From a virus, in IMG/VR virus record IMGVR_UViG_3300046532_003398, positions 1-30,999 of that record: a stretch of 30,999 nucleotides of DNA. One strand, given 5' to 3'. Under the pieces are notes generated by a model, which saw only the letters and a program-made list of their open reading frames with translations, ran no database searches and had not been told where the DNA came from. Each line of letters begins with the position of its first letter. Position 1 is the first letter of the stretch. The position numbers were made by a program, and so were the translations under genes. This document shows, in pieces, positions 2,731 through 24,731 of the stretch.

Positions 2731-2975
2731 TGCCTGAATGGGGGGCGCTCCTGATAGTTCTCGCAGGGCTTTTTATCCTGGCGCATTTGTTTAACTATTT
2801 CACCCAATCGGCTTATTGGTGGTGGGCTGACTGGCGCGCCAGCAAAGAAGACGAGAAAATGTTGAAAGAACAAGAAGAAACAGCAGAAAAGATGTTAGAT
2901 AACATAGTTAAACTAGATGATAGGAGAAAAGTAACCTTCATCGTACCTAACTATGATGATGACACGATCCATTGA
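2730..2975 (+). CDS. Small membrane protein with charged helix
   Basis: 81 residues. Residues 4-24 form one hydrophobic segment, followed by an aromatic patch Y-W-W-W-A-D-W and a Lys/Glu-rich helix (about 38-65). A single-pass inner-membrane protein with a cytosolic tail is likely. It is coupled to the upstream gene by TGATG overlap and overlaps the next small gene. Function unknown. Confidence 0.65.
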   Translation: MPEWGALLIVLAGLFILAHLFNYFTQSAYWWWADWRASKEDEKMLKEQEETAEKMLDNIVKLDDRRKVTFIVPNYDDDTIH

Positions 2976-3096
2976 ACTCTTGGGGGAACCACTAACGATC
3001 CTAGTGATAGCGATTGTGACGTTCTATGGATTCAGTTGGATATTAGAAAAGTTTGCGTATTTGATCGGATTCAGAGATGACGATGAAACGTGGTGA
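2953..3096 (+). CDS. Very small membrane protein
   Basis: 47 residues from ATG 2953 (2956 and 2959 are in-frame alternatives). It has one long hydrophobic segment (L-T-I-L-V-I-A-I-V-T-F-Y-G-F) and an acidic end D-D-D-E-T-W. It overlaps the previous gene by 23 nt and the next start by 14-20 nt, fitting the packing of this region. No homologue recognised. Confidence 0.55.
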   Translation: MMMTRSIELLGEPLTILVIAIVTFYGFSWILEKFAYLIGFRDDDETW

Positions 3097-3289
3097 TTTG
3101 GTTACGGCAATCTATGACGAACAAAGAAATATTGTATGTATTGGTTTAGTTCTGGAAGTGAGAAAAGAAAAAACAAGAAAGTACAAAACCCACAATCTCA
3201 AACGCGACGAAGCAAAGATAATGTGGTCATCCGAGCACTCACCGACTGGATGGTGGTTCGTCGACCAGCTAAGGATAGTAAGCGAATGA
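3083..3289 (+). CDS. GDLV-type small protein
   Basis: Starts M-K-R-G-D-L-V-T; then I-G-L-V-L-E-V, A-K-I-M-W and W-F-V-D-Q-L-R-I-V, the full strand pattern, in 68 residues. ATG 3083 is chosen over 3077 because the family begins directly with M-K-x-G-D. The stop overlaps the next start (ATGA). Confidence 0.75.
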   Translation: MKRGDLVTAIYDEQRNIVCIGLVLEVRKEKTRKYKTHNLKRDEAKIMWSSEHSPTGWWFVDQLRIVSE

Positions 3290-3471
3290 AAGTCGGTGAC
3301 ATCGTGCGATGGACGCTGCCGGCAGCATTCACAACGAGAGAAGTATCACCTCAAATAGGCGTTATAGTTAAGATGCATATTGGCAATGGCGCCGATGTCG
3401 CGTGGTTCGGTGATAATATGCGTATCGTCTGGACTCCGATAGTCGAGCTAAAGGTCATTTCAGTCTCGTGA
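3286..3471 (+). CDS. GDLV-type small protein
   Basis: 61 residues: M-K-V-G-D-I-V-R-W at the start, I-G-V-I-V-K in the middle, A-D-V-A-W, and a final L-K-V-I-S-V-S. It is coupled by ATGA to the paralogue before it. Its stop TGA (3469-3471) is part of the first GTGAC of the next promoter. Confidence 0.8.
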   Translation: MKVGDIVRWTLPAAFTTREVSPQIGVIVKMHIGNGADVAWFGDNMRIVWTPIVELKVISVS

Positions 3472-4949: not shown

Positions 4950-5236
4950 TGGGCGAGTTAGTTAATCTTAAAGAGTACCGAGCCTGGAAATCTAAACAGG
5001 ACGAAGAGAAAAAACAAACGGAAAAGGGTATTGTCATTAACGAGTTAGAAGCCCTCAAAAATGCGTTGGATGCGATTGTGAAAGACCTACCAGATCAAAC
5101 ACATTCGATGACCCACCCGTCGATCGAGTCAGACCTCGATGCGTTTATGAGCAAGGGCTCCGATCCTGGAGACTTGGATGGATATCTGCTGAACTTGGGA
5201 CTAACGATAGATTACGATGAAACAGACGAAACTTAA
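4949..5236 (+). CDS. Hypothetical phage helical protein
   Basis: 95 residues, starting M-G-E-L-V-N-L-K-E-Y-R with a Lys/Glu-rich helix after it, a start seen in several phage hypothetical proteins. The acidic C-terminal half (D-P-G-D-L-D-G-Y-L) may be disordered. ATG 4949 is chosen because it overlaps the previous stop. The last 20 nt overlap the next gene. Confidence 0.7.
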   Translation: MGELVNLKEYRAWKSKQDEEKKQTEKGIVINELEALKNALDAIVKDLPDQTHSMTHPSIESDLDAFMSKGSDPGDLDGYLLNLGLTIDYDETDET

Positions 5237-5474
5237 AGCATCGCCGCAGTTTAAGATTGGGGACTTCGTACTCGTCAAAGAAGGCACTCATTGCGAAGAT
5301 ATGCCGGCATCACGTATGGGACATGTCCAGGGCTATGCTAACGGCTCCCGGCTTTATAATAAACACGGCGTAACGGTAACACCCTGTGATAGCTATTACT
5401 TATACATGACAAACGGAACAACACTAAAGTTCCACGAAATGTTTTTAGAACTGGTGGAAGATGAAGGTGGGTGA
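5217..5474 (+). CDS. GDLV-type small protein with N-terminal extension
   Basis: 85 residues. F-K-I-G-D-F-V-L-V is at 12-20 after an 11-residue basic extension; then M-G-H-V-Q-G-Y, Y-Y-L-Y-M and a closing M-F-L-E-L-V. The last 14 nt overlap the next family member, so its E-D-E-G-G tail is fixed by that gene's start. Confidence 0.7.
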   Translation: MKQTKLKASPQFKIGDFVLVKEGTHCEDMPASRMGHVQGYANGSRLYNKHGVTVTPCDSYYLYMTNGTTLKFHEMFLELVEDEGG

Positions 5475-5649
5475 TCTGGTAATCATAAAGAAAGGCCACA
5501 CGGGATGGAGCCCCAGCCCCACGGGGATCGTGATCGCGATGCCTCGCTCTACCAGCTCGCGCGGGTTCATCAAAGTTCATTGGTCGTGGGATATCGGATT
5601 TACCGATGAGCGATGGGGCGCCCTGGAGGTTATCAATGAAAGCCGGTGA
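5461..5649 (+). CDS. GDLV-type small protein
   Basis: 62 residues: M-K-V-G-D-L-V-I-I, T-G-I-V-I-A, F-I-K-V-H-W-S-W, W-G-A-L-E-V-I-N-E-S-R. Overlaps by 14 nt at both ends (5461-5474 and 5636-5649). The upstream GGTGGAAG serves as ribosome site inside the previous coding sequence. Confidence 0.85.
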   Translation: MKVGDLVIIKKGHTGWSPSPTGIVIAMPRSTSSRGFIKVHWSWDIGFTDERWGALEVINESR

Positions 5650-5812
5650 TCTCGTTAAACATTATAGAGCCGATTGGCTCGGTGTTATCACGAGGGTGCG
5701 GAAGCTACACCATAATCCGGCTGGGATCCAGTACGTTGAGCTTGTATGGCTCTTCACCGGTCAGCCCGATCGCTGTGCGCCAAGCCTTTTGCTGATGGTC
5801 AGTGAATCGTGA
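5636..5812 (+). CDS. GDLV-type small protein, last of the P4 operon
   Basis: 58 residues: M-K-A-G-D-L-V-K, L-G-V-I-T-R-V, Y-V-E-L-V-W and a final L-L-L-M-V-S-E-S. GGAGGTTATCA precedes the ATG within the previous gene. Its stop TGA (5810-5812) is part of the P5 repeat. Confidence 0.8.
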   Translation: MKAGDLVKHYRADWLGVITRVRKLHHNPAGIQYVELVWLFTGQPDRCAPSLLLMVSES

Positions 5813-5852
5813 CATTTCGTGACTTGACCTCGACCATCGATTGTTGTATAAT
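5809..5852 (+). promoter_or_regulatory. GTGAC-repeat promoter, class A (P5)
   Basis: GTGAC at 5809 and 5819 (ATTTC between), abutting -35 TTGACC (5824-5829); 17-bp spacer; -10 TATAAT (5847-5852); leader AAGGGTATCAAGGAGG. Confidence 0.87.
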
Positions 5853-5876
5853 AGAAGGGTATCAAGGAGGTACAAC

Positions 5877-6218
5877 TTGAAGATTGAACTTGACGAAACT
5901 GAACTCACCCATATCCTCGATTCCCTGCACGAGCGGATTGACGATCTTGCGGATACACTGACATTTGGCGAGGATCCTATGACTCGGGATTTGATCGCGG
6001 AGTTGACCGCGCTAACTGACGATCTCCGCGAAGCATCTGCTCGCCGTGATGACGGCTGGGATGACATCCCTGCGCTCGATGCTGGCGCTGAGTTTATCCA
6101 GGCAGGCATTGACGCGCGCGAGCGGGTTAAAGCGTCCTCACGGGCAGCAGAGCGCCGCTCAGAGCGTATACTGGCCGGCACTGCGAGCCCCGTCTCTAAC
6201 GATCCCATCGACTGGTAG
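5877..6218 (+). CDS. Hypothetical helical protein (TTG start)
   Basis: 113 residues starting at TTG 5877 with AAGGAGG 7 nt upstream. An earlier in-frame TTG overlaps the -10 box and cannot be the start. A short strand K-I-E-L-D is followed by long acidic/basic helices. Ala, Arg and Asp content is high. No family recognised. It is the first gene of the P5 operon. Confidence 0.75.
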   Translation: MKIELDETELTHILDSLHERIDDLADTLTFGEDPMTRDLIAELTALTDDLREASARRDDGWDDIPALDAGAEFIQAGIDARERVKASSRAAERRSERILAGTASPVSNDPIDW

Positions 6219-6225
6219 GTTAAAT

Positions 6226-6549
6226 ATGATTATTTGGGTTTTGTCTGGAACTTATGAGGGCGAGCAGTTTGCAAGCTCACACTTGACCGAGAAGGGCGCC
6301 GCACTGGCGGCTATCGGTGATGTGCTATCCCTGCTCGATATAAACGATGAGGATGGCGCGCGCGGAGTGATGAAGAATAGCGACATTGAGCTGTCGGATG
6401 AAGAGGATACCATAGAATGGGATCTGGTCAAGATGCGAGCAATGCCCCGTGAGGAGTTGTGGGTGATTTTTAGCGAGTGGAACGAATACACGTGGGATAT
6501 GCATGCGGGTTATAATGTAGAAGTTATCAGGACGGAGCTAACCGCATGA
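6226..6549 (+). CDS. Hypothetical acidic protein
   Basis: 107 residues. The start I-I-W-V-L-S-G-T-Y-E-G looks like a beta strand, followed by helices with many Asp/Glu and an E-L-W-V-I-F segment. It begins 8 nt after the previous stop; ATGA overlap couples it to the GDLV gene after it. No signature recognised. Confidence 0.7.
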   Translation: MIIWVLSGTYEGEQFASSHLTEKGAALAAIGDVLSLLDINDEDGARGVMKNSDIELSDEEDTIEWDLVKMRAMPREELWVIFSEWNEYTWDMHAGYNVEVIRTELTA

Positions 6550-6746
6550 AAGTCGGTGATTTGGTAAAGTTGGGAGGCGGCGCACGAGATGTCTGGGGCC
6601 TGCCGACCGGCGTTGCTGTGCTGCTTGAAAAGCTGCCAAGGAACGATAGGCTTGAATACGACTGGAGAGTTTTCGTTGATGGAAGATCCATCGAGCTTGG
6701 GCGCCAGATAGAGCAATCAGCGGAGGTAGTAAATGAAAGTCGGTGA
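6546..6746 (+). CDS. GDLV-type small protein
   Basis: 66 residues: M-K-V-G-D-L-V-K-L, T-G-V-A-V-L-L, W-R-V-F-V-D-G, and S-A-E-V-V-N-E-S-R. It starts inside the previous stop (ATGA) and overlaps the next paralogue by 14 nt. Confidence 0.83.
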   Translation: MKVGDLVKLGGGARDVWGLPTGVAVLLEKLPRNDRLEYDWRVFVDGRSIELGRQIEQSAEVVNESR

Positions 6747-6924
6747 CCTCGTAATCTTCAATGAACATCAGAAATGGGCGCATCGCGTGCAGCCCGGTCT
6801 TGTTATCGAGGTTGGCGTATACGTTGGGCGCAAGGACGTTAAAGTTATGTGGAGCTACAAAGGCAAGAAGTATTGGAACACCGAGAAGTCGCGAGAACTG
6901 GAGGTTATCAGTGAAAGTCGGTGA
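6733..6924 (+). CDS. GDLV-type small protein
   Basis: 63 residues: M-K-V-G-D-L-V-I-F, P-G-L-V-I-E-V, V-K-V-M-W, L-E-V-I-S-E-S-R. Fourteen-nucleotide overlaps with both neighbours; GGAGGTAGTAA before the ATG is in the previous gene. Confidence 0.83.
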   Translation: MKVGDLVIFNEHQKWAHRVQPGLVIEVGVYVGRKDVKVMWSYKGKKYWNTEKSRELEVISESR

Positions 6925-7069
6925 TCTGGTGCGAAAGAAGCAGCCTTCAAAGTTCAAGGGCTACGGGATCATCGTCAGGGAAGGATCTTCACCCTGTGTC
7001 ATCGTTGTCTGGTCGGATGGAGGTCCACCGTTCAAGACCACAAGGCGCTCACTGCGCCCCCTTGTCTAA
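6911..7069 (+). CDS. GDLV-type small protein (GTG start)
   Basis: 52 residues, among the shortest members: V/M-K-V-G-D-L-V-R, Y-G-I-I-V-R, C-V-I-V-V-W-S-D-G-G-P-P. It starts at GTG because the junction reads AGTGAAAGTCGGTGA instead of AATGAAAGTCGGTGA. The final W/L-E strand is missing or replaced by R-S-L-R-P-L-V. It ends the P5 operon 3 nt before P6. Confidence 0.78.
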   Translation: MKVGDLVRKKQPSKFKGYGIIVREGSSPCVIVVWSDGGPPFKTTRRSLRPLV

Positions 7070-7072
7070 ACC

Positions 7073-7116
7073 GTGACATTTCGTGACTTGCGTTTTGCTC
7101 TCGCATGTGAGATAAT
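7073..7116 (+). promoter_or_regulatory. GTGAC-repeat promoter, class A (P6)
   Basis: GTGAC at 7073 and 7083 (ATTTC between), abutting -35 TTGCGT (7088-7093); 17-bp spacer; -10 GATAAT (7111-7116); leader AGGAGTAATCAAGGAG. Confidence 0.87.
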
Positions 7117-7139
7117 ACAGGAGTAATCAAGGAGACGAT

Positions 7140-7262
7140 GTGTCTAAGAAAGCTAAAACCCGCAACTGGCTCGCAGTGCGGGCACATCTGCGTTCGGGTG
7201 CTGGAAAGCACAAGGACAAGTCCAAGTATACCCGCAAGGTCAAGCACAAGGGGGCACAATGA
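7140..7262 (+). CDS. Very small, highly basic protein
   Basis: 40 residues from GTG 7140 (AAGGAG 7 nt upstream): about one third Lys/Arg plus several His, with K-H-K-D-K-S-K-Y-T-R-K-V-K-H-K near the end. The overlapping ATG at 7138 is in another frame that would run past the next gene's start. Composition suggests nucleic-acid or ribosome binding. Similar tiny basic proteins exist in phages; function unknown. It heads the P6 operon and overlaps the next gene by ATGA. Confidence 0.65.
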   Translation: MSKKAKTRNWLAVRAHLRSGAGKHKDKSKYTRKVKHKGAQ

Positions 7263-7471
7263 AAGTCGGTGACCTCGTTAAACTTACGCGCGACAGCGAC
7301 TATCAGCCTCAGATTTTCAGGCGCGGTATGGTCGGCATCGTGGAATGGATTGAGCCGATGGAGCGTGCCTCTGGCGAGCCCTTCGTGGATGTGCGCGTCT
7401 CTGGCGCTGGCGATCGTCCAGTCGTTTCCTATCTCGCGATGGATCTGGAGGTAATCAATGAAAGTCGGTGA
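7259..7471 (+). CDS. GDLV-type small protein
   Basis: 70 residues: M-K-V-G-D-L-V-K-L, M-V-G-I-V-E-W-I, F-V-D-V-R-V, M-D-L-E-V-I-N-E-S-R. First of seven consecutive family members in the P6 operon. Confidence 0.85.
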   Translation: MKVGDLVKLTRDSDYQPQIFRRGMVGIVEWIEPMERASGEPFVDVRVSGAGDRPVVSYLAMDLEVINESR

Positions 7472-7640
7472 TTTGGTAAAGGTAAAGCTCACACACGGAC
7501 GCGAGCCCATCACAGGGCTTATAATCGAGCTTAAAGAAGATGAATATAATACTGTTGCTCTCGTCAAGCCAATAGCATCCGAGCATCGCCTGATGTATGC
7601 TAACCCGTTGGACATCGAGGTTCTCAATGAAAGTCGGTGA
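7458..7640 (+). CDS. GDLV-type small protein
   Basis: 60 residues: M-K-V-G-D-L-V-K-V, T-G-L-I-I-E-L, V-A-L-V-K-P, L-D-I-E-V-L-N-E-S-R. GGAGGTAATCA ribosome site within the previous gene; 14-nt overlaps on both sides. Confidence 0.85.
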   Translation: MKVGDLVKVKLTHGREPITGLIIELKEDEYNTVALVKPIASEHRLMYANPLDIEVLNESR

Positions 7641-7770
7641 TCTGGTAAGAGATCGCTATGGTGATATTCCCGTGGGACTTGTCATAGCGCTGCGTGAACT
7701 TGAGGTGCTTGTTCTGCACGGGGCGATACAGAAGTGGTATCGTCGGGATGCTTTTGGAGTGTTCGCATGA
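7627..7770 (+). CDS. GDLV-type small protein, shortest copy
   Basis: 47 residues: M-K-V-G-D-L-V-R, P-V-G-L-V-I-A-L, L-E-V-L-V-L-H-G, then W-Y-R-R-D-A-F-G-V-F. It starts in the 14-nt overlap with the previous gene and ends in ATGA with the next. The core strands are all kept, so it probably defines the minimal fold. Confidence 0.75.
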   Translation: MKVGDLVRDRYGDIPVGLVIALRELEVLVLHGAIQKWYRRDAFGVFA

Positions 7771-7943
7771 AAGTCAGTGATTTGGTTAAAGTTGTTTACG
7801 ATGATGGTGAGAAGGAAATGGCTACGATGCCATATACCGGCATCGGCATTGTTGTGAAAATCGAAGAAGCTGCCGATGCGACATGGATCCATCTGCATAC
7901 AGGCGAAGAGTTCAAAATAGACAAGTTGGAGATTGTAAAATGA
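7767..7943 (+). CDS. GDLV-type small protein
   Basis: 58 residues: M-K-V-S-D-L-V-K-V (Gly replaced by Ser), I-G-I-V-V-K-I, W-I-H-L-H, K-L-E-I-V-K. The ATGA junction gives it an L-E-I-V-K end instead of N-E-S-R. Confidence 0.8.
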   Translation: MKVSDLVKVVYDDGEKEMATMPYTGIGIVVKIEEAADATWIHLHTGEEFKIDKLEIVK

Positions 7944-8134
7944 AGTGGCCTGATTTGAAAGTCGGTGACCTCGTTAAAGTTAGGCTGAAGTGGGGGCAAC
8001 CCTCGATTGTGGGGCTCATTGTCAAGATGTGGCACAATAGGCTGGAATGGATCTATGAGGTTCGGAATGTCAAGAGTGGGTTGCTGACCCACGCCACCGA
8101 GATAGATATGGAGGTAATCAATGCAAGTCGGTGA
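7940..8134 (+). CDS. GDLV-type small protein with short N-terminal extension
   Basis: 64 residues. M-K-W-P-D-L precedes K-V-G-D-L-V-K-V; then V-G-L-I-V-K-M-W, Y-E-V-R-N-V, M-E-V-I-N-A-S-R. ATGA overlap upstream, 14-nt overlap downstream. Confidence 0.82.
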   Translation: MKWPDLKVGDLVKVRLKWGQPSIVGLIVKMWHNRLEWIYEVRNVKSGLLTHATEIDMEVINASR

Positions 8135-8312
8135 TTTGGTTAAAGTTGTTTGCGTGGATGATCACCCGATGGGGATGATCTTGGAAGTGCGCGATCATCC
8201 GAGTGGCTACAGGATCCAGCATTATCGGGTTCAACTGTTTGGGCGGAACCTCCACCCGCGACCACATAGGCCACACCAGTATTTGAAGCATCAACTAGAG
8301 ATCGTGAAATGA
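8121..8312 (+). CDS. GDLV-type small protein
   Basis: 63 residues: M-Q-V-G-D-L-V-K-V-V, M-G-M-I-L-E-V, Y-R-V-Q-L-F-G, Q-L-E-I-V-K. The basic, His/Pro-rich loop before the last strand is distinctive. ATGA overlap with the next copy. Confidence 0.82.
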   Translation: MQVGDLVKVVCVDDHPMGMILEVRDHPSGYRIQHYRVQLFGRNLHPRPHRPHQYLKHQLEIVK

Positions 8313-8506
8313 AGAAAGGCGATCTTGTTAAAGTTAGGAAAATGAAGGGCGCCGGGATCATCCAGGCGGTTCAGACGAACCGCGAAATCTGCGGACCTAA
8401 CGGAGATTTTCACATGACGCGCCACTATAGAGTGCTTTTGAACGGCAAAATCTGGCGCATCCACGAAGCAAGTCTCATCCTTATCTCAAATCGTGACATT
8501 TCGTGA
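8309..8506 (+). CDS. GDLV-type small protein, last of the P6 operon
   Basis: 65 residues: M-K-K-G-D-L-V-K-V, G-A-G-I-I-Q-A-V, Y-R-V-L-L-N-G-K, A-S-L-I-L-I-S-N-R-D-I-S. The R-D-I-S tail is encoded by the P7 repeat; the stop lies in its second GTGAC. Confidence 0.83.
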   Translation: MKKGDLVKVRKMKGAGIIQAVQTNREICGPNGDFHMTRHYRVLLNGKIWRIHEASLILISNRDIS

Positions 8507-9505: not shown

Positions 9506-10585
9506 ATGTCCGTCGATTTCGCAACCTTTACCTCTGTCGTTTCTCACATCCTCGACGCGCGCCTTCCGGTGCTGCTTCGTGGGCGTCATGGAGTCGGCAA
9601 GTCTCAAGTCGTTTACCAGATCGCAGACGCGCGAGAGCTGCCCGTAGTGGAGCGCCGCGCCTCTCAGATGACTGAAGGCGATCTTCTCGGTCTGCCCGAT
9701 ACCACCGATACCGCGAGTGGCCGCAAGGCTACCACCTGGAACGCGCCTGACTGGCTCGTCACTGCCTGTGAGCAGCCCGTAGTCCTCTTCCTCGATGAAG
9801 TGGACCGCGCGACCATGGAAGTGCGTCAGGGGCTCTTTGAGCTTACCGACTCCCGCAAGATCAACGGCTGGCACCTGCACCCTGAGACGCTGATCGTCGC
9901 TGCCGTCAATGGCGGCGAGCACGGCGCCCAGTATCAGGTGGGCGAAATGGACCCGGCAGAGCTTGACCGCTGGACCGTGTTCGACGTCGAGCCCTCCGTT
10001 GAAGATTGGCTCAAGTGGGCGAATGGCAAGGTTAACGGGATCCTGTGGGACTTCGTTAATATGAACCGCGCGCACCTGGAGCACATCGGTGACTTCGAGC
10101 CTAACAAGGTTTATCCTTCTCGTCGCTCGTGGGTTCGCTTCAACGATACCTCTACTCCTGCCGATGTGTTCGGTGAGGAAGGCGATCGCGATCTCCTCTT
10201 CAACCTCGCAACTGCATTCGTCGGTTTCGAGGCTGCGGTTTCCCTCCGTGACTTCGTTGAGAAGTACGAATGGCAGGTAACCATTGAGGATATCCTTGAT
10301 GCCGGCGATCTATCTAAGACTATCCAGTGGGGCATCAATGACCACTCCGCGATGATCGAGAAGTTCGAGGCCGCCGCAGTCTTCAAGGAGACCCTGACCT
10401 CCGAGCAGGTTGCTAACCTCGCTGCCTACTTCGTCAGCCTGCCCTCCGAGGTAGCGATGAAGCTCTGGACCGTCCTGGGCGACACCGATAACATTGATAA
10501 TGTTGTCGCGCTCCACAAGGCTGAGACCGCCGATGGTAAGCGAGTGAGCGATCACCTTGTTGAAATCCTGGGCGGTTCTCAGTAA
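9506..10585 (+). CDS. MoxR-type AAA+ ATPase
   Basis: 359 residues. Walker A G-R-H-G-V-G-K-S at 26-33, Walker B V-V-L-F-L-D-E at 92-98 followed by V-D-R-A, sensor-1 N135 in V-A-A-V-N, and a likely arginine finger near D-R-W (about 154-156). This is the AAA_5/MoxR group. These ATPases remodel protein complexes together with a VWA-domain partner, and a VWA protein is encoded two genes downstream. Length fits the family. Leader hairpin and GGAG box precede ATG 9506. It ends in a TAATG overlap with a GDLV-type gene. Confidence 0.92.
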   Translation: MSVDFATFTSVVSHILDARLPVLLRGRHGVGKSQVVYQIADARELPVVERRASQMTEGDLLGLPDTTDTASGRKATTWNAPDWLVTACEQPVVLFLDEVDRATMEVRQGLFELTDSRKINGWHLHPETLIVAAVNGGEHGAQYQVGEMDPAELDRWTVFDVEPSVEDWLKWANGKVNGILWDFVNMNRAHLEHIGDFEPNKVYPSRRSWVRFNDTSTPADVFGEEGDRDLLFNLATAFVGFEAAVSLRDFVEKYEWQVTIEDILDAGDLSKTIQWGINDHSAMIEKFEAAAVFKETLTSEQVANLAAYFVSLPSEVAMKLWTVLGDTDNIDNVVALHKAETADGKRVSDHLVEILGGSQ

Positions 10586-16335: not shown

Positions 16336-16521
16336 ATGACAAAAGAAAGCATAGCACAAGTATACGAAGCAGCCAGCGCAGGTATATTAAGGCCACAGCT
16401 AGCCGCAAATATACTCCCAGACGTCTGTGAAACCGCGCTAGCACTATTTAAAACTGTTGAGCAACAGAAGGCTCAGATAGAAATATTGCAGAGAGCACAC
16501 TCCCCAGAATATGTCCCATAA
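16336..16521 (+). CDS. Small helical protein
   Basis: 61 residues, mainly two amphipathic helices (S-I-A-Q-V-Y-E-A-A, A-L-A-L-F-K-T-V-E-Q-Q-K-A-Q-I-E-I). AAGGATTTAAGAG precedes the ATG. Its stop overlaps the start of the following GDLV-type gene by 11 nt. Function unknown. Confidence 0.6.
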   Translation: MTKESIAQVYEAASAGILRPQLAANILPDVCETALALFKTVEQQKAQIEILQRAHSPEYVP

Positions 16522-16810
16522 TAGAAACCAGCTTGACTTTGTGAAAGGAGATCTAGTATACTTTGTAGGGTATGAAGCTTCTACAGATAGAAGCAGGTTA
16601 GGAGTGGTTATTAATGTGAAGGTAGGAGGTTCCCATTTTCCAATGTACGTGATTCATTGGTTTAAAGATAATTTGCAGTCGACGCATACTGCAACGCACA
16701 TCGACTTGGCGTATACTATTGGTACTGCCGATATGATAGGCAACGAAATTAGCGCTAAATCGCTTCACCATTTAAAAGACAGAGTAAATGATCGCAGCGA
16801 AGGTGATTAA
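16511..16810 (+). CDS. GDLV-type small protein, right-half member
   Basis: 99 residues: F-V-K-G-D-L-V-Y-F at 10-18, L-G-V-V-I-N-V, M-Y-V-I-H-W-F, then an added about 35-residue helical tail ending R-S-E-G-D. It shows that the family continues past the composition boundary, in AT-richer codons. Confidence 0.78.
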   Translation: MSHNRNQLDFVKGDLVYFVGYEASTDRSRLGVVINVKVGGSHFPMYVIHWFKDNLQSTHTATHIDLAYTIGTADMIGNEISAKSLHHLKDRVNDRSEGD

Positions 16811-16835
16811 CCAATAAATTAACTAATTATAAACG

Positions 16836-17096
16836 ATGCAAATTACAAAACAATACGTAAAAGCGCTTATCCTCGAAGAGATGACGAAAGCCGAAGTTAA
16901 AGAGCTTGTCGATGATGCCATCGAGAAAAAGCTTAAGAAAGAATTGCCGCTAGCGCTCAAAACCGAACTTGAGAAATCACTCAAGTCAAAAGAAATCAAG
17001 GCAGACATCGGCGAAATTGCAAAAAAGGTTATTAAAAAGCTTTATAAGGACCTTTCCCTCCATCATCCATATATTATTGACCGAATTAAGGTATAA
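16836..17096 (+). CDS. Helical protein with L-I-x-E-E motif
   Basis: 86 residues, strongly helical and charged. The start I-T-K-Q-Y-V-K-A-L-I-L-E-E-M resembles the short N-terminal helix found on many marine-phage virion proteins. Then E-L-V-D-D-A-I-E-K-K-L-K-K-E-L repeats. No ribosome site beyond AT-rich sequence is obvious. A structural or scaffold-related role is possible. Confidence 0.6.
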   Translation: MQITKQYVKALILEEMTKAEVKELVDDAIEKKLKKELPLALKTELEKSLKSKEIKADIGEIAKKVIKKLYKDLSLHHPYIIDRIKV

Positions 17097-17106
17097 ACTG
17101 TTTACT

Positions 17107-17283
17107 ATGATAGCAAAAGCTAAAACTGGCGATTTTATAAAAGACTTGGGCGCCCAAAAGCGTTCTTTGGGTTTTGTTGAGTGTGTTGACAAGCGCACTG
17201 AAATGATGTTGGTTAAATTTCCTAAAATAAATCGGACTTGCTGGGTTATGTGGAATAATTACGGACAATATAAGGTAATATGA
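17107..17283 (+). CDS. GDLV-type small protein, divergent
   Basis: 58 residues: A-K-T-G-D-F-I-K at 5-12, L-G-F-V-E-C-V, M-L-V-K-F, W-V-M-W, Y-K-V-I. Start at ATG 17107. It ends 1 nt before the next ATG. Confidence 0.65.
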   Translation: MIAKAKTGDFIKDLGAQKRSLGFVECVDKRTEMMLVKFPKINRTCWVMWNNYGQYKVI

Positions 17284-17284
17284 A

Positions 17285-17554
17285 ATGAAGTATATTATAG
17301 GCGCCGGCATTGGGGGTTTATTCGGCATTGGCATGCCCCTGATGATGGAATTCGATATGCATAACCCAACCAATGAAGAATATTCGAGACTAGAGGAATT
17401 CCAGCCCGCGGAAAAGGGCTCCTTTATACCCATCAAGAATATGCTGCTTATTCCGGATAATTATTGTGGGTTAATCGATTATAGCGCTATAGACCCTGCA
17501 GAACAAGCTAAAGAGTGTTTAGTGCGCTCGGAGACCGTTGTCCCTGCTATATAA
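17285..17554 (+). CDS. Hypothetical protein with N-terminal membrane segment
   Basis: 89 residues. Residues 3-20 (Y-I-I-G-A-G-I-G-G-L-F-G-I-G-M-P-L) are Gly-rich and hydrophobic, a probable membrane anchor; the remainder is soluble and acidic. No clear signal cleavage site. Function unknown. Confidence 0.6.
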   Translation: MKYIIGAGIGGLFGIGMPLMMEFDMHNPTNEEYSRLEEFQPAEKGSFIPIKNMLLIPDNYCGLIDYSAIDPAEQAKECLVRSETVVPAI

Positions 17555-17557
17555 TAT

Positions 17558-17833
17558 GTGGAAGACATAGTACTTAAGGCCGGCGGGGTTATAATCGATT
17601 ATGAGACAGGCGACGTTGGTCTTCTTGTTAGCCGGTATGATATCCTTGATCACTTGCCCACTACATTAGATTTTGGTCATAAAGACGATTACCGCGTTTG
17701 GGTTTGGGAGATCTTTTGGAGCGGCCCTGTCGCCGACCAGAATAATCGATATTTTCCCTATACTGAATCAGGGCTTTTAAATATGATTGTGGCCGGAACT
17801 TTTAAGTATATTGCTTGTTCGACAAGTAGTTAA
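17558..17833 (+). CDS. Small beta-rich protein, distant GDLV relative (copy 1)
   Basis: 91 residues from GTG 17558. V-I-I-D-Y-E-T-G-D-V-G-L-L-V at 11-24, then V-W-V-W-E-I-F-W. The next gene shows the same order (I-I-I-D-x-x-S-G-Y-T-G-M-L-V, F-W-E-V-K-W), so they are tandem duplicates. The pattern of a first strand, G-x-L-V, and V-x-W suggests a branch of the local family. Confidence 0.65.
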   Translation: MEDIVLKAGGVIIDYETGDVGLLVSRYDILDHLPTTLDFGHKDDYRVWVWEIFWSGPVADQNNRYFPYTESGLLNMIVAGTFKYIACSTSS

Positions 17834-17836
17834 TGT

Positions 17837-18139
17837 ATGCGATTTGACTTGCAAGATAGGCTCGATAGTGTTATACTAAGTATTGGCGATATAATCATTG
17901 ATCAGTTCTCTGGTTATACCGGCATGCTTGTTCATCGCAAGCACCGTATTGATATGATGGATGACGATTTGTATTTTTGGGAGGTCAAGTGGATGACTAA
18001 TGTTGAACGAGACGATTCGAATCCGAATTATACTCGTATTAGGCTAAGCGATATCCTTGAAGAAGAAGGCATTAAGCTTTCAATTGTGGTAGGAGCGATG
18101 GAATGGCATTCAATAAATGGAGGAACTTTTGAGTTATAA
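17837..18139 (+). CDS. Small beta-rich protein, distant GDLV relative (copy 2)
   Basis: 100 residues. S-I-G-D-I-I-I-D-Q-F-S-G-Y-T-G-M-L-V near 15-32 is the closest link between this pair and the G-D-L-V proteins; then Y-F-W-E-V-K-W-M and L-S-D-I-L. It starts 3 nt after copy 1. Confidence 0.67.
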   Translation: MRFDLQDRLDSVILSIGDIIIDQFSGYTGMLVHRKHRIDMMDDDLYFWEVKWMTNVERDDSNPNYTRIRLSDILEEEGIKLSIVVGAMEWHSINGGTFEL

Positions 18140-18146
18140 TTGGAAT

Positions 18147-18587
18147 ATGTATAAAGTGTTTAGTAATGGCAATCGTGCGAAAGCACCGTTTGCTGTGGTG
18201 GATGGAGAGGATTGCAAGAGTGATGACTTTCGTGCGGTGGTAGGGAAAATTTTAGAGGAAAAGTTTGGCGAAAAAGCTGCGCTTACAACCTATAAAATTA
18301 TGCGCGCTGACCTGCCCCAAGAGGAAAGGGTTGACGATGAAGAGAGAAAAAATTTGGTCTTAAGAAACCGAGTGCTTTCACAAAAAATCAATGATTTGGG
18401 GCTCGATCTTCAAAACATCAAATCTTCGGGGGCCCTGATTTTATCCGGTGAGACCAATTGGGAGTGGCAGTGGTGCGTTATCCGTATGGCGTCTAATCAA
18501 TTCATTGCAGCCCTCTCGCCGCCATTTGATATTATTAGTGGAGCGCATGCGTGGATAAACAAAGAAATCGAAAAAATAACCATATAA
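18147..18587 (+). CDS. Hypothetical protein
   Basis: 146 residues from ATG 18147; ATG 18117 would add 10 residues and overlap the previous gene. N-terminal F-A-V-V-D-G and a helix, a charged hinge (Q-E-E-R-V-D-D-E-E-R-K), and a C-terminal W-E-W-Q-W-C-V-I-R strand. No family recognised. It overlaps the next gene by 37 nt. Confidence 0.65.
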   Translation: MYKVFSNGNRAKAPFAVVDGEDCKSDDFRAVVGKILEEKFGEKAALTTYKIMRADLPQEERVDDEERKNLVLRNRVLSQKINDLGLDLQNIKSSGALILSGETNWEWQWCVIRMASNQFIAALSPPFDIISGAHAWINKEIEKITI

Positions 18588-18805
18588 GATGGGATGTTTT
18601 TGAAGGTGATTTAGTCAAGGTTAAAAAATATGCTCTTGACGGCGAAGTCTATTATGAATCAGGTATCGTTATATCTGATAAAATAAATGATCAGATCCTT
18701 ATGTTTCCTTATGTTAACATTTATGTCTTCAAATCAGCCACCGTGGAGAGGCATTTACCCAACACAGTTGAAATAATTTCTTCGAAAAGCGATGGTCGCT
18801 CATAG
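18551..18805 (+). CDS. GDLV-type small protein with basic N-terminus
   Basis: 84 residues from GTG 18551: a basic extension (K-Q-R-N-R-K-N-N), F-E-G-D-L-V-K-V-K at 17-25, S-G-I-V-I-S, V-N-I-Y-V-F, T-V-E-I-I-S. A later start is possible but none has a better ribosome site. Confidence 0.7.
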   Translation: MDKQRNRKNNHIRWDVFEGDLVKVKKYALDGEVYYESGIVISDKINDQILMFPYVNIYVFKSATVERHLPNTVEIISSKSDGRS

Positions 18806-23770: not shown

Positions 23771-24151
23771 ATGGCTTATAGTGATAAAGTAATTGAACAT
23801 TACGAAAATCCTCAGAATATTGGTTCTATGGATAAAGAAGATTCTAATGTTGGCACCGGATTAGTTGGCGCGCCGGCGTGCGGAGATGTAATGAAATTAC
23901 AACTTCGTATTAGTGATGATGGTATTATTGAAGATGCTAAATTTAGAACTTTTGGTTGTGGTTCAGCAATTGCATCAAGTTCTTTAGTTACTACAATGGT
24001 AAAGGGAATGTCGGTAAAAGAAGCTAACCAAATAAAAAATTCAGATATCGCGAAAGAACTATCGCTTCCACCAGTTAAAATACATTGTTCAGTATTAGCG
24101 GAAGACGCTGTAAAATCAGCTATAAAAAATTGGAAAGAGAAGCAAAAATAG
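23771..24151 (+). CDS. iscU: IscU Fe-S cluster scaffold
   Basis: 126 residues, full length. The cluster ligands C37, C63 and C106 sit at the same positions as in E. coli IscU, with D39 in A-C-G-D-V-M, H105 before C106, and the L-P-P-V-K HscA-binding motif at 99-103. It would accept sulfur from host IscS and hand clusters to carriers with the host HscA/HscB chaperones, which are not encoded here. GGAG lies 8 nt upstream. Tight operon with nfu-like and iscA-like genes (1-2 nt gaps). Confidence 0.95.
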   Translation: MAYSDKVIEHYENPQNIGSMDKEDSNVGTGLVGAPACGDVMKLQLRISDDGIIEDAKFRTFGCGSAIASSSLVTTMVKGMSVKEANQIKNSDIAKELSLPPVKIHCSVLAEDAVKSAIKNWKEKQK

Positions 24152-24152
24152 A

Positions 24153-24404
24153 ATGATCTCAATACAAAATAAAATACATCAAATTTTTGAGGAAGATATC
24201 AATCCTTCTCTCGATTTACATGCAGGCAGTGCTACTGTAAACGATATCAATATTACTGATAACAAAATCAAAATCAAAATTAAGTTTCGAGGGAGTTGCG
24301 TTGGATGTCCTTCATCTGAAACCTCTACCCTATTAGGAATTCAAGCATACTTAGAAGAAGAAATACAAGGTTATAAAATTATAATTATTAAAGAGGATGA
24401 TTAA
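24153..24404 (+). CDS. Nfu (NifU C-terminal) domain protein
   Basis: 83 residues. R-G-S-C49-V-G-C52-P-S-S is the Nfu CxxC motif, which bridges a 4Fe-4S cluster between two subunits. Only the Nfu domain is present, without the A-type domain of bacterial NfuA. It would receive clusters from IscU or IscA and pass them on. The start lies 1 nt after the IscU stop and the next gene follows directly. Confidence 0.9.
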   Translation: MISIQNKIHQIFEEDINPSLDLHAGSATVNDINITDNKIKIKIKFRGSCVGCPSSETSTLLGIQAYLEEEIQGYKIIIIKEDD

Positions 24405-24731
24405 ATGGCTATTACAATTACTAGCGAAGCAATTAACAAAATTGAAAATATTAAAAAAATGAGTCAAACTCCTGATGCTTGCTTGAGGATCTCTTTAAAA
24501 GGTGGCGGATGTTCTGGTTTTATGTATCATTACGATTTTGTTGAAGAACCGATGGAAAATGATAAAGTATTTACTTTTGATACCCTTACAATCTGCATCG
24601 ATAAAAAATCATATTTATTTTTAAATGGAACTGAGATAGATTATCAAGAAGATTTAATGAAGTCTGGTTTAGTATTCAAAAATCCCAAAGCAAACAGGAC
24701 TTGTGGGTGTGGTGAGTCAGTTTCTTTCTAA
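24405..24731 (+). CDS. iscA: A-type Fe-S carrier (IscA/ErpA/SufA family)
   Basis: 108 residues. C36 in G-G-G-C-S-G-F and C100-x-C102 in T-C-G-C-G-E-S-V-S-F are the three ligands of A-type carriers, at family spacing. E. coli IscA and ErpA cannot be told apart by eye, so the symbol is approximate. It completes the scaffold-carrier set in the phage operon. Confidence 0.92.
   Translation: MAITITSEAINKIENIKKMSQTPDACLRISLKGGGCSGFMYHYDFVEEPMENDKVFTFDTLTICIDKKSYLFLNGTEIDYQEDLMKSGLVFKNPKANRTCGCGESVSF

Follow-up and report, generated by a model that had tools for sequence, protein, structure and literature searches.

It has long been asked whether the mosaic genomes of phages are built through shared border sequences or arise from random breaks among which selection sorts. 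The question is raised by a run of small genes in IMG/VR virus record IMGVR_UViG_3300046532_003398. The window analyzed here is a 30,999-base stretch of this record, and all window coordinates are positions within that stretch. It carries an array of paralogous genes for SH3-barrel proteins of ~60 amino acids (the 'MKVGDLV' family), in which the start of one gene commonly lies inside the end of the gene before it. Because many near-identical coding borders occur per genome and genes are gained and lost exactly at gene resolution, the border model becomes directly testable here. Comparison of related sequences reveals the anatomy of the junction, a rule that governs the protein tail, biases in stops and codons, and junction-exact insertions and deletions (indels) of whole genes between relatives. 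We propose that the junction is probably a frame-safe recombination adaptor that makes small SH3-barrel genes exchangeable.

In this arrangement, each small SH3-barrel gene would constitute one cassette. Its 5′ end, (A/G)TGAAAGTCGGTGA, would act as a plug that supplies a start codon together with stops in both other frames, ending any preceding gene, and at its 3′ end a ribosome site concealed in the codons of the last barrel strand would act as the socket.

Overlapping Starts in the SH3-Barrel Gene Array

A sequence-only reading of the window had placed the starts of seven genes, at 5461, 5636, 6733, 6911, 7458, 7627 and 8121, inside the preceding gene. All seven are present within 5461-8134, and the overlap is exactly 14 nt in each case. 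The same reading had described six of the overlaps as a consensus or a variant of it by one or two bases; the variants are as described, and the count rises to seven, as every overlap lies within two bases of ATGAAAGTCGGTGA. The family profile marks 17 open reading frames (ORFs) in the window, the majority of which start with M-K-V-G-D-L-V or a variant. The array is composed as follows:

2953-3096: unrelated upstream gene, ending ETW
3083-3096, + strand: eighth 14-nt overlap, ATGAAACGTGGTGA, between the unrelated gene 2953-3096 and a family gene
3083-3289, + strand: family gene (MKVGDLV, SH3-like)
3286-3471, + strand: family gene, 4-nt ATGA overlap with the preceding gene
5217-5474, + strand: upstream gene with a KIGDFV region; tail EDEGG, a shadow cast by the 5461 start
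5461-5474, + strand: 14-nt overlap ATGAAGGTGGGTGA
5461-5649, + strand: family gene, tail LEVINESR
5625-5649, + strand: ribosome site GGAGGT within the LEV codons, and 14-nt overlap ATGAAAGCCGGTGA (5636-5649)
5636-5812, + strand: family gene
6546-6746, + strand: family gene, tail AEVVNESR
6722-6746, + strand: ribosome site and 14-nt overlap ATGAAAGTCGGTGA (6733-6746)
6733-6924, + strand: family gene, modeled with AlphaFold2 as an SH3-like barrel
6900-6924, + strand: ribosome site and 14-nt overlap GTGAAAGTCGGTGA (6911-6924), GTG start
6911-7069, + strand: family gene, GTG start
7140-7262: small non-family ORF, 4-nt overlap into the 7259 gene
7259-7471, + strand: family gene, tail LEVINESR, 4-nt overlap with ORF 7140-7262
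7447-7471, + strand: ribosome site and 14-nt overlap ATGAAAGTCGGTGA (7458-7471)
7458-7640, + strand: family gene, tail IEVLNESR
7616-7640, + strand: ribosome site and 14-nt overlap ATGAAAGTCGGTGA (7627-7640)
7627-7770, + strand: short family gene; the next gene overlaps it by 4 nt
7767-7943, + strand: family gene, MKVSDLV; the next gene overlaps it by 4 nt
7940-8134, + strand: family gene (MKWPDLKVGDLV), tail MEVINASR
8110-8134, + strand: ribosome site and 14-nt overlap ATGCAAGTCGGTGA (8121-8134), MQVGD start
8121-8312, + strand: family gene, tail LEIVK, 4-nt ATGA overlap with the next gene
8309-8506, + strand: final family gene of the run

The strand that precedes the tails at the seven junctions reads LEVI, AEVV, IEVL or MEVI. 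The tail itself, which had been given as NESR for six of the junctions, is NESR in four of the seven; it is EDEGG at 5461, SESR at 6911, where the next gene starts with GTG, and NASR at 8121, where the next gene starts MQVGD. With up to three mismatches allowed, the junction pattern occurs at seven places in the window and at none in 100 dinucleotide-preserving shuffles, one of the seven places being 7259, a start at which the gene truly lying upstream terminates in the other frame. Five further family starts (3286, 7259, 7767, 7940 and 8309) have a 4-nt ATGA overlap, and the gene upstream belongs to the family in four of these five cases, the exception being that before 7259.

The 14-nt Layout among Relatives

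Fifty-four IMG/VR stretches contain the exact junction pattern, and the encoded MKVGD-type start occurs in at least 120. A family profile built from 13 window proteins in two rounds was used to gather family genes from 244 IMG/VR loci, with identical gene contexts counted once and six copies of the window (L055-L060) excluded, leaving 1504 distinct contexts. The arrangement recurs among them: at least one family overlap of 14 nt is found in 159 of the 244 loci. A family gene overlaps the next one in 763 of the 1504 contexts, by 14 nt in 600, by 4 nt in 80, by 10 nt in 27 and by other lengths in 56. In prokaryotes at large, by comparison, the portion of PMC3887535 available gives 4 nt for ~45% of gene overlaps and 1 nt for 15%. 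The 10-nt class, ATGCAAGTAG, yields the tail CK (loci L024, L038, L097, L157 and L075). As many of the loci had been fetched by the junction or start pattern, 80 extra loci were fetched with the ATPase that adjoins the array as the query:

9506-10585, + strand: AAA ATPase adjoining the array; anchor for the 80 related loci, with the junction playing no part in their choice

Family genes are present in 78 of these 80 loci, and of their 408 family neighbors 289 share a 14-nt overlap.

The cassettes appear to be real genes. Across 178 orthologous pairs, the first, second and third codon positions carry 1167, 849 and 2632 substitutions, respectively, and codons with a single change divide into 1785 synonymous and 773 nonsynonymous, which indicates purifying selection.

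The C-Terminal Tail Reports the Start of the Next Gene

An ATG lies 14 nt from the end of the gene for all 141 proteins that terminate in NESR, and a GTG occupies that position for 141 of the 142 that terminate in SESR; the single exception has a 20-nt overlap with a longer start, MKAKVGD. The less frequent tails obey the same rule, with NASR corresponding to ATG CAA (CAA in 22 of 23) and SEGR to GTG AAG (23 of 23). In total, a start codon lies at -14 in 454 of 456 shadow-type tails, and the other exception, from L132, seems to have matched the tail pattern by chance. Since tail sequences track the start and second codons, the tail reports the start of the neighboring gene, and no separate signal at the protein level is visible in it. 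The dependence is also seen in a single gene shared by L045 and L079, which ends ALEVIA or ALEVINEDR according to what comes next. The possibility that NESR tails are relics left after loss of the next gene is ruled out by the same counts.

GTG starts make up 52% of those in 14-nt overlaps, as compared with 14% where an MKVGD gene is isolated or comes first; arrays perhaps tolerate or favor weaker initiation.

The Plug Closes the Upstream Gene in Either Frame

At 912 of 1144 family starts, each of the two other frames meets a stop within 17 nt, versus 6.6% of 67,547 internal positions in the same genes, and therefore an upstream gene is closed in whichever of the two frames it arrives. Non-family frames of at least 50 amino acids also end in the plug, with a 4-nt overlap in 154 cases and a 14-nt overlap in 115. 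The codon for Gly4 is GGT, as the 14-nt stop requires, in 86% of starts.

One alternative is that these features are a by-product, in which the start is conserved through a requirement of the protein for MKVGDLV and through common ancestry, while breakpoints fall at gene borders solely through the removal by selection of recombinants within genes. With MKVGD given, reading phase alone sets the overlap of tightly packed genes to 4 or 14 nt, and GGT is used at 77% even of first or isolated MKVGD starts, which is compatible with ancestry. Against this, the use of GGT climbs from 30% in gene bodies to 98% in the class that requires the stop, that of the 14-nt overlaps. For this reason, together with the position of crossovers described below, we consider the by-product explanation unlikely.

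The Ribosome Site Lies in the Last Strand of the Barrel

The sequence-only reading had interpreted the whole of LEVINESR as the shadow of the next gene's ribosome site and start. This holds for NESR, as only 1 of 283 NESR or SESR proteins is without a start codon at -14; for LEVI it holds only in part. AlphaFold2, given 99 aligned relatives, models 6733-6921 (pLDDT 89.4) as a barrel of five strands, the last of which comprises residues 56-60, L-E-V-I-S, with E-S-R beyond the strand. In this model LEVI has a structural role, as it forms the final strand of the SH3 barrel. Consistent with this assignment, a strand motif is kept near the end of 258 of 375 copies that are not followed by an overlapping gene. 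Whereas the NESR tail is tied to the next start, the LEVI-type strand thus persists without one, and its interpretation solely as a shadow is ruled out.

The identity of one residue in the strand does depend on the junction. Glutamate occupies the position in 84% of the 14-nt class, encoded by GAG and GAA in a ratio of 491:14, as compared with 34% and 38:50 in copies without an overlapping gene (a contrast that omits 366 genes whose downstream start is ambiguous and 56 whose overlaps have other lengths). Since both the high share of glutamate and the GAG bias are features of the 14-nt class, the ribosome site GGAGGT appears to fix residue and codon alike. The start signals of a neighboring gene would in this manner dictate protein sequence twice, in the tail and in the last-strand glutamate.

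At 398 of the 600 junctions, five or more nucleotides of a ribosome-site core are recognizable 5 nt ahead of the start, and from the anatomy of the junctions translation is likely to be coupled across the overlaps. It is possible, if doubtful, that the overlap is kept for such termination-reinitiation, holding the SH3 proteins at a fixed ratio, perhaps within a hetero-oligomer, and that modular exchange is a side effect. Both the placement of the core and the enrichment of short overlaps for complex subunits in E. coli and Haloferax, as described in the portion of PMC10666635 available, are in keeping with such a role. A fixed stoichiometry is nevertheless difficult to match with cassette numbers that range from 7 to 32 family matches per record among 18 chosen related records, and with neighbors that differ between relatives.

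Cassettes Are Gained, Lost and Exchanged at Junctions

If the junction is an adaptor for recombination, the discontinuities between related arrays should coincide with it. Among homology blocks of at least 150 nt and 70% identity, the 5′ end falls within a 45-nt junction window in 125 of 132 cases and the 3′ end in 100 of 119 (query side), compared with an expected 31%. Stronger evidence comes from breaks between relatives whose flanks are at least 85% identical over at least 100 nt; 21 of 62 distinct breaks are located in arrays. Eleven of these are simple indels in which whole cassettes have been added or removed, nine of them junction-exact by rule and the other two cassette-exact on inspection. 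They represent nine distinct events, as the event in L036/L220 is seen again in L036/L219 and that in L182/L196 again in L178/L182. The expectation that copy number changes by exact recombination between junctions is therefore borne out.

Individual events locate the crossover more closely. Only one member of the pair L006/L008 carries a certain 176-nt cassette, located at a 20-nt repeat, ATGAAAGTCGGTGATTTGGT, and the surrounding DNA is 99.5-100% identical. Four cassettes have been lost in L036/L220, where the next gene starts with ATG instead of GTG, and switches of this kind place the crossovers inside the plug in L016/L044, L036/L220 and L182/L196. The crossover in L177/L223 lies in the LEV/ribosome-site part. 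Such crossovers, within a shared repeat of ~20 nt and with start codons swapped, weigh against a by-product, as do ten simple indels outside the arrays, whose overlaps range from -57 to +7, seven of them being shorter than 13 nt.

It is conceivable that assemblers lost or added cassettes at short repeats, as all of the contigs are metagenomic and the L006/L008 repeats are exact over ~20 nt. We regard such an artefact as highly improbable, given that several events combine swapped start codons with flanks that are 87-98% identical and that therefore belong to different viruses.

The sequence-only reading had further suggested that recombination at the junction duplicates cassettes. Copy number indeed shifts by exact exchange, whereas recent duplication is rare: only 3 of 789 adjacent pairs, and 13 of 8626 non-adjacent pairs, score above 0.3, and the one clean duplicate is a near-identical cassette that occurs twice in L051, with another cassette between the copies and a sharp fall in identity at both junctions. 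As far as these sequences record, loss, gain and exchange dominate over recent duplication. Duplication as the main recent route to arrays is rejected, as neighboring cassettes are too dissimilar.

Several observations weigh against the adaptor hypothesis. Recent tandem duplicates are as scarce as just described, and only 2 of 10 replacement breaks have both ends at junctions by rule, with the other eight having one end there. Homology-block ends can reflect gene-wise divergence, a point that also favors the by-product explanation, and breaks at gene borders are expected in any case from selection. The nine indel events stem from few contig pairs, and all of the data are metagenomic assemblies. 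Finally, no recognizable ribosome-site core is present at 52 of the 600 14-nt junctions, and GAA is used in 14.

A Model for Cassette Exchange

Under the adaptor hypothesis, which we continue to favor, cassettes share a nearly identical plug of ~20 nt, and so a crossover between two plugs could drop, add or replace whole cassettes. After such an exchange, the new neighbor would supply the upstream protein with its short tail, and the loss, swap or duplication of a cassette would leave the adjoining genes undamaged. The recombination could be performed by the phage's own RecA/UvsX system, and selection may favor a cassette repertoire that can be changed quickly, perhaps for host takeover or counter-defense. 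A role of the SH3 proteins in either process is a guess based on cassette turnover. More tentatively still, plug and socket might have been shaped by selection for exchangeability itself. The array would then be a cassette system that needs no integrase, in which T4-like phage populations reassort a common stock of small binding proteins, such as counter-defense or host-takeover factors, without a reading-frame cost.

The arrays resemble three known systems, each described here from portions of the sources cited. The lambda nin region has been called a 'chain of interlinked genes' (Kroger and Hobom, 1982, as cited in PMC8022706), and it likewise consists of close-packed small accessory genes with overlapping start and stop codons and with mosaic content among relatives (PMC8022706). 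In nin, ATGA joins separately named genes by 4 nt (PMC8022706), whereas window-type arrays link paralogues of one fold mainly by 14 nt, the 4-nt link accounting for 80 of 763 overlaps as against 600 for the 14-nt link. Window-type arrays further differ from nin in placing the ribosome site inside a protein strand and stops in two frames within the plug.

Short conserved boundary, or linker, sequences have been described at the borders of phage modules (Susskind and Botstein, 1978; Clark et al., 2001; as cited in PMC3029335), with homologous recombination at a short common sequence flanking modules as the shared principle; in the account of that source, identifiable sequences are missing at most borders (PMC3029335). 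Here, a short conserved border sequence is found at 600 of 763 overlapping family neighbors, and breakpoints lie in the border for the simple indels and less consistently for the replacements. The present case differs from these precedents in that a single sequence, coding in two frames and occurring several times per genome, runs throughout a paralogous array and is accompanied by gene-exact indels.

Segmental amplification of T4 dmd-tifA, in which copy number is altered via 6-10-bp microhomologies (PMC9391042), shares with our arrays a T4-like phage and shifts in gene copy number by short-repeat recombination. As described in that source, the T4 microhomologies are fortuitous and a single unit is repeated in tandem, whereas the arrays have a standing repeat of at least 14 nt at most borders and mostly diverged cassettes; the near-identical tandem copies expected of a gene accordion are nearly absent, and the L051 pair is separated by a cassette. 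Neither the junction nor the MKVGDLV family surfaced in listings from the literature searched, a collection with few subscription journals.

Protein Family and Carriers

Structure matches to the predicted barrel are headed by SH3-like barrels, the best with Z 8.7 (rmsd 2.6, 61 residues aligned, 7s3d_E), and include likeness to PsaE, NdhS and the KOW domains of NusG/Spt5. The five-strand barrel is common to all of these and the family model, but the Z scores are middling and window members have no curated-family match above the cut-off; the middling scores therefore point to a shared fold and imply no function. Among 99 members, one matches the KOW profile PF00467 weakly (E 0.005), and the family profile matches NusG at E 0.0019. 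Searches of Pfam, PHROGs and NCBIfam with the 99 members returned no convincing curated family; scattered weak matches (E 0.01 or better) involve seven Pfam families with at most two members each, eight PHROGs with at most three, and none in NCBIfam. A search of viral structure models gave uncultured marine phage proteins among its weak matches.

The 18 related records (62-293 kb) encode Gp23 (17 of 18), RecA/UvsX (18 of 18) and gp32 (16 of 18), and all 18 contain the plug pattern, compared with none in the reversed control. Judged from these 18 related records, rather than from the window record itself, the carriers of the cassettes are T4-like phages. In INPHARED, tblastn of four cassettes and blastn of the array returned no cultured relative, although five queries do not prove absence. 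The junction is also present in ten contigs, L250-L259, that were binned into bacterial and archaeal metagenome-assembled genomes and are probably phage contigs. In L124 (+ strand, near 8073-8086), an ORF starting VKVGEYDANGNGNSVLFRPDDGDTDIRIIP, which falls outside the SH3 profile, begins at a junction and may represent a different kind of gene behind a plug.

Other Features of the Window

A promoter-like spacer is repeated between cassette runs and before the genes that follow them, consisting of GTGACATTTCGTGACTTG, then a box resembling TATAAT, and GGAG:

21, 3473, 3777, 5804, 7068 and 8488; also 4547, 9396, 10979, 12740 and 14158: promoter-like spacer GTGACATTTCGTGACTTG

More GDLV-type ORFs (16541 and 18551) lie in window 16511-18805, distant from the array. 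Six tRNA genes occur amid small ORFs at 781-2052, and Fe-S assembly genes NifU_N, NifU and Fe-S_biosyn stand in a row at 23771-24731 of this phage record.

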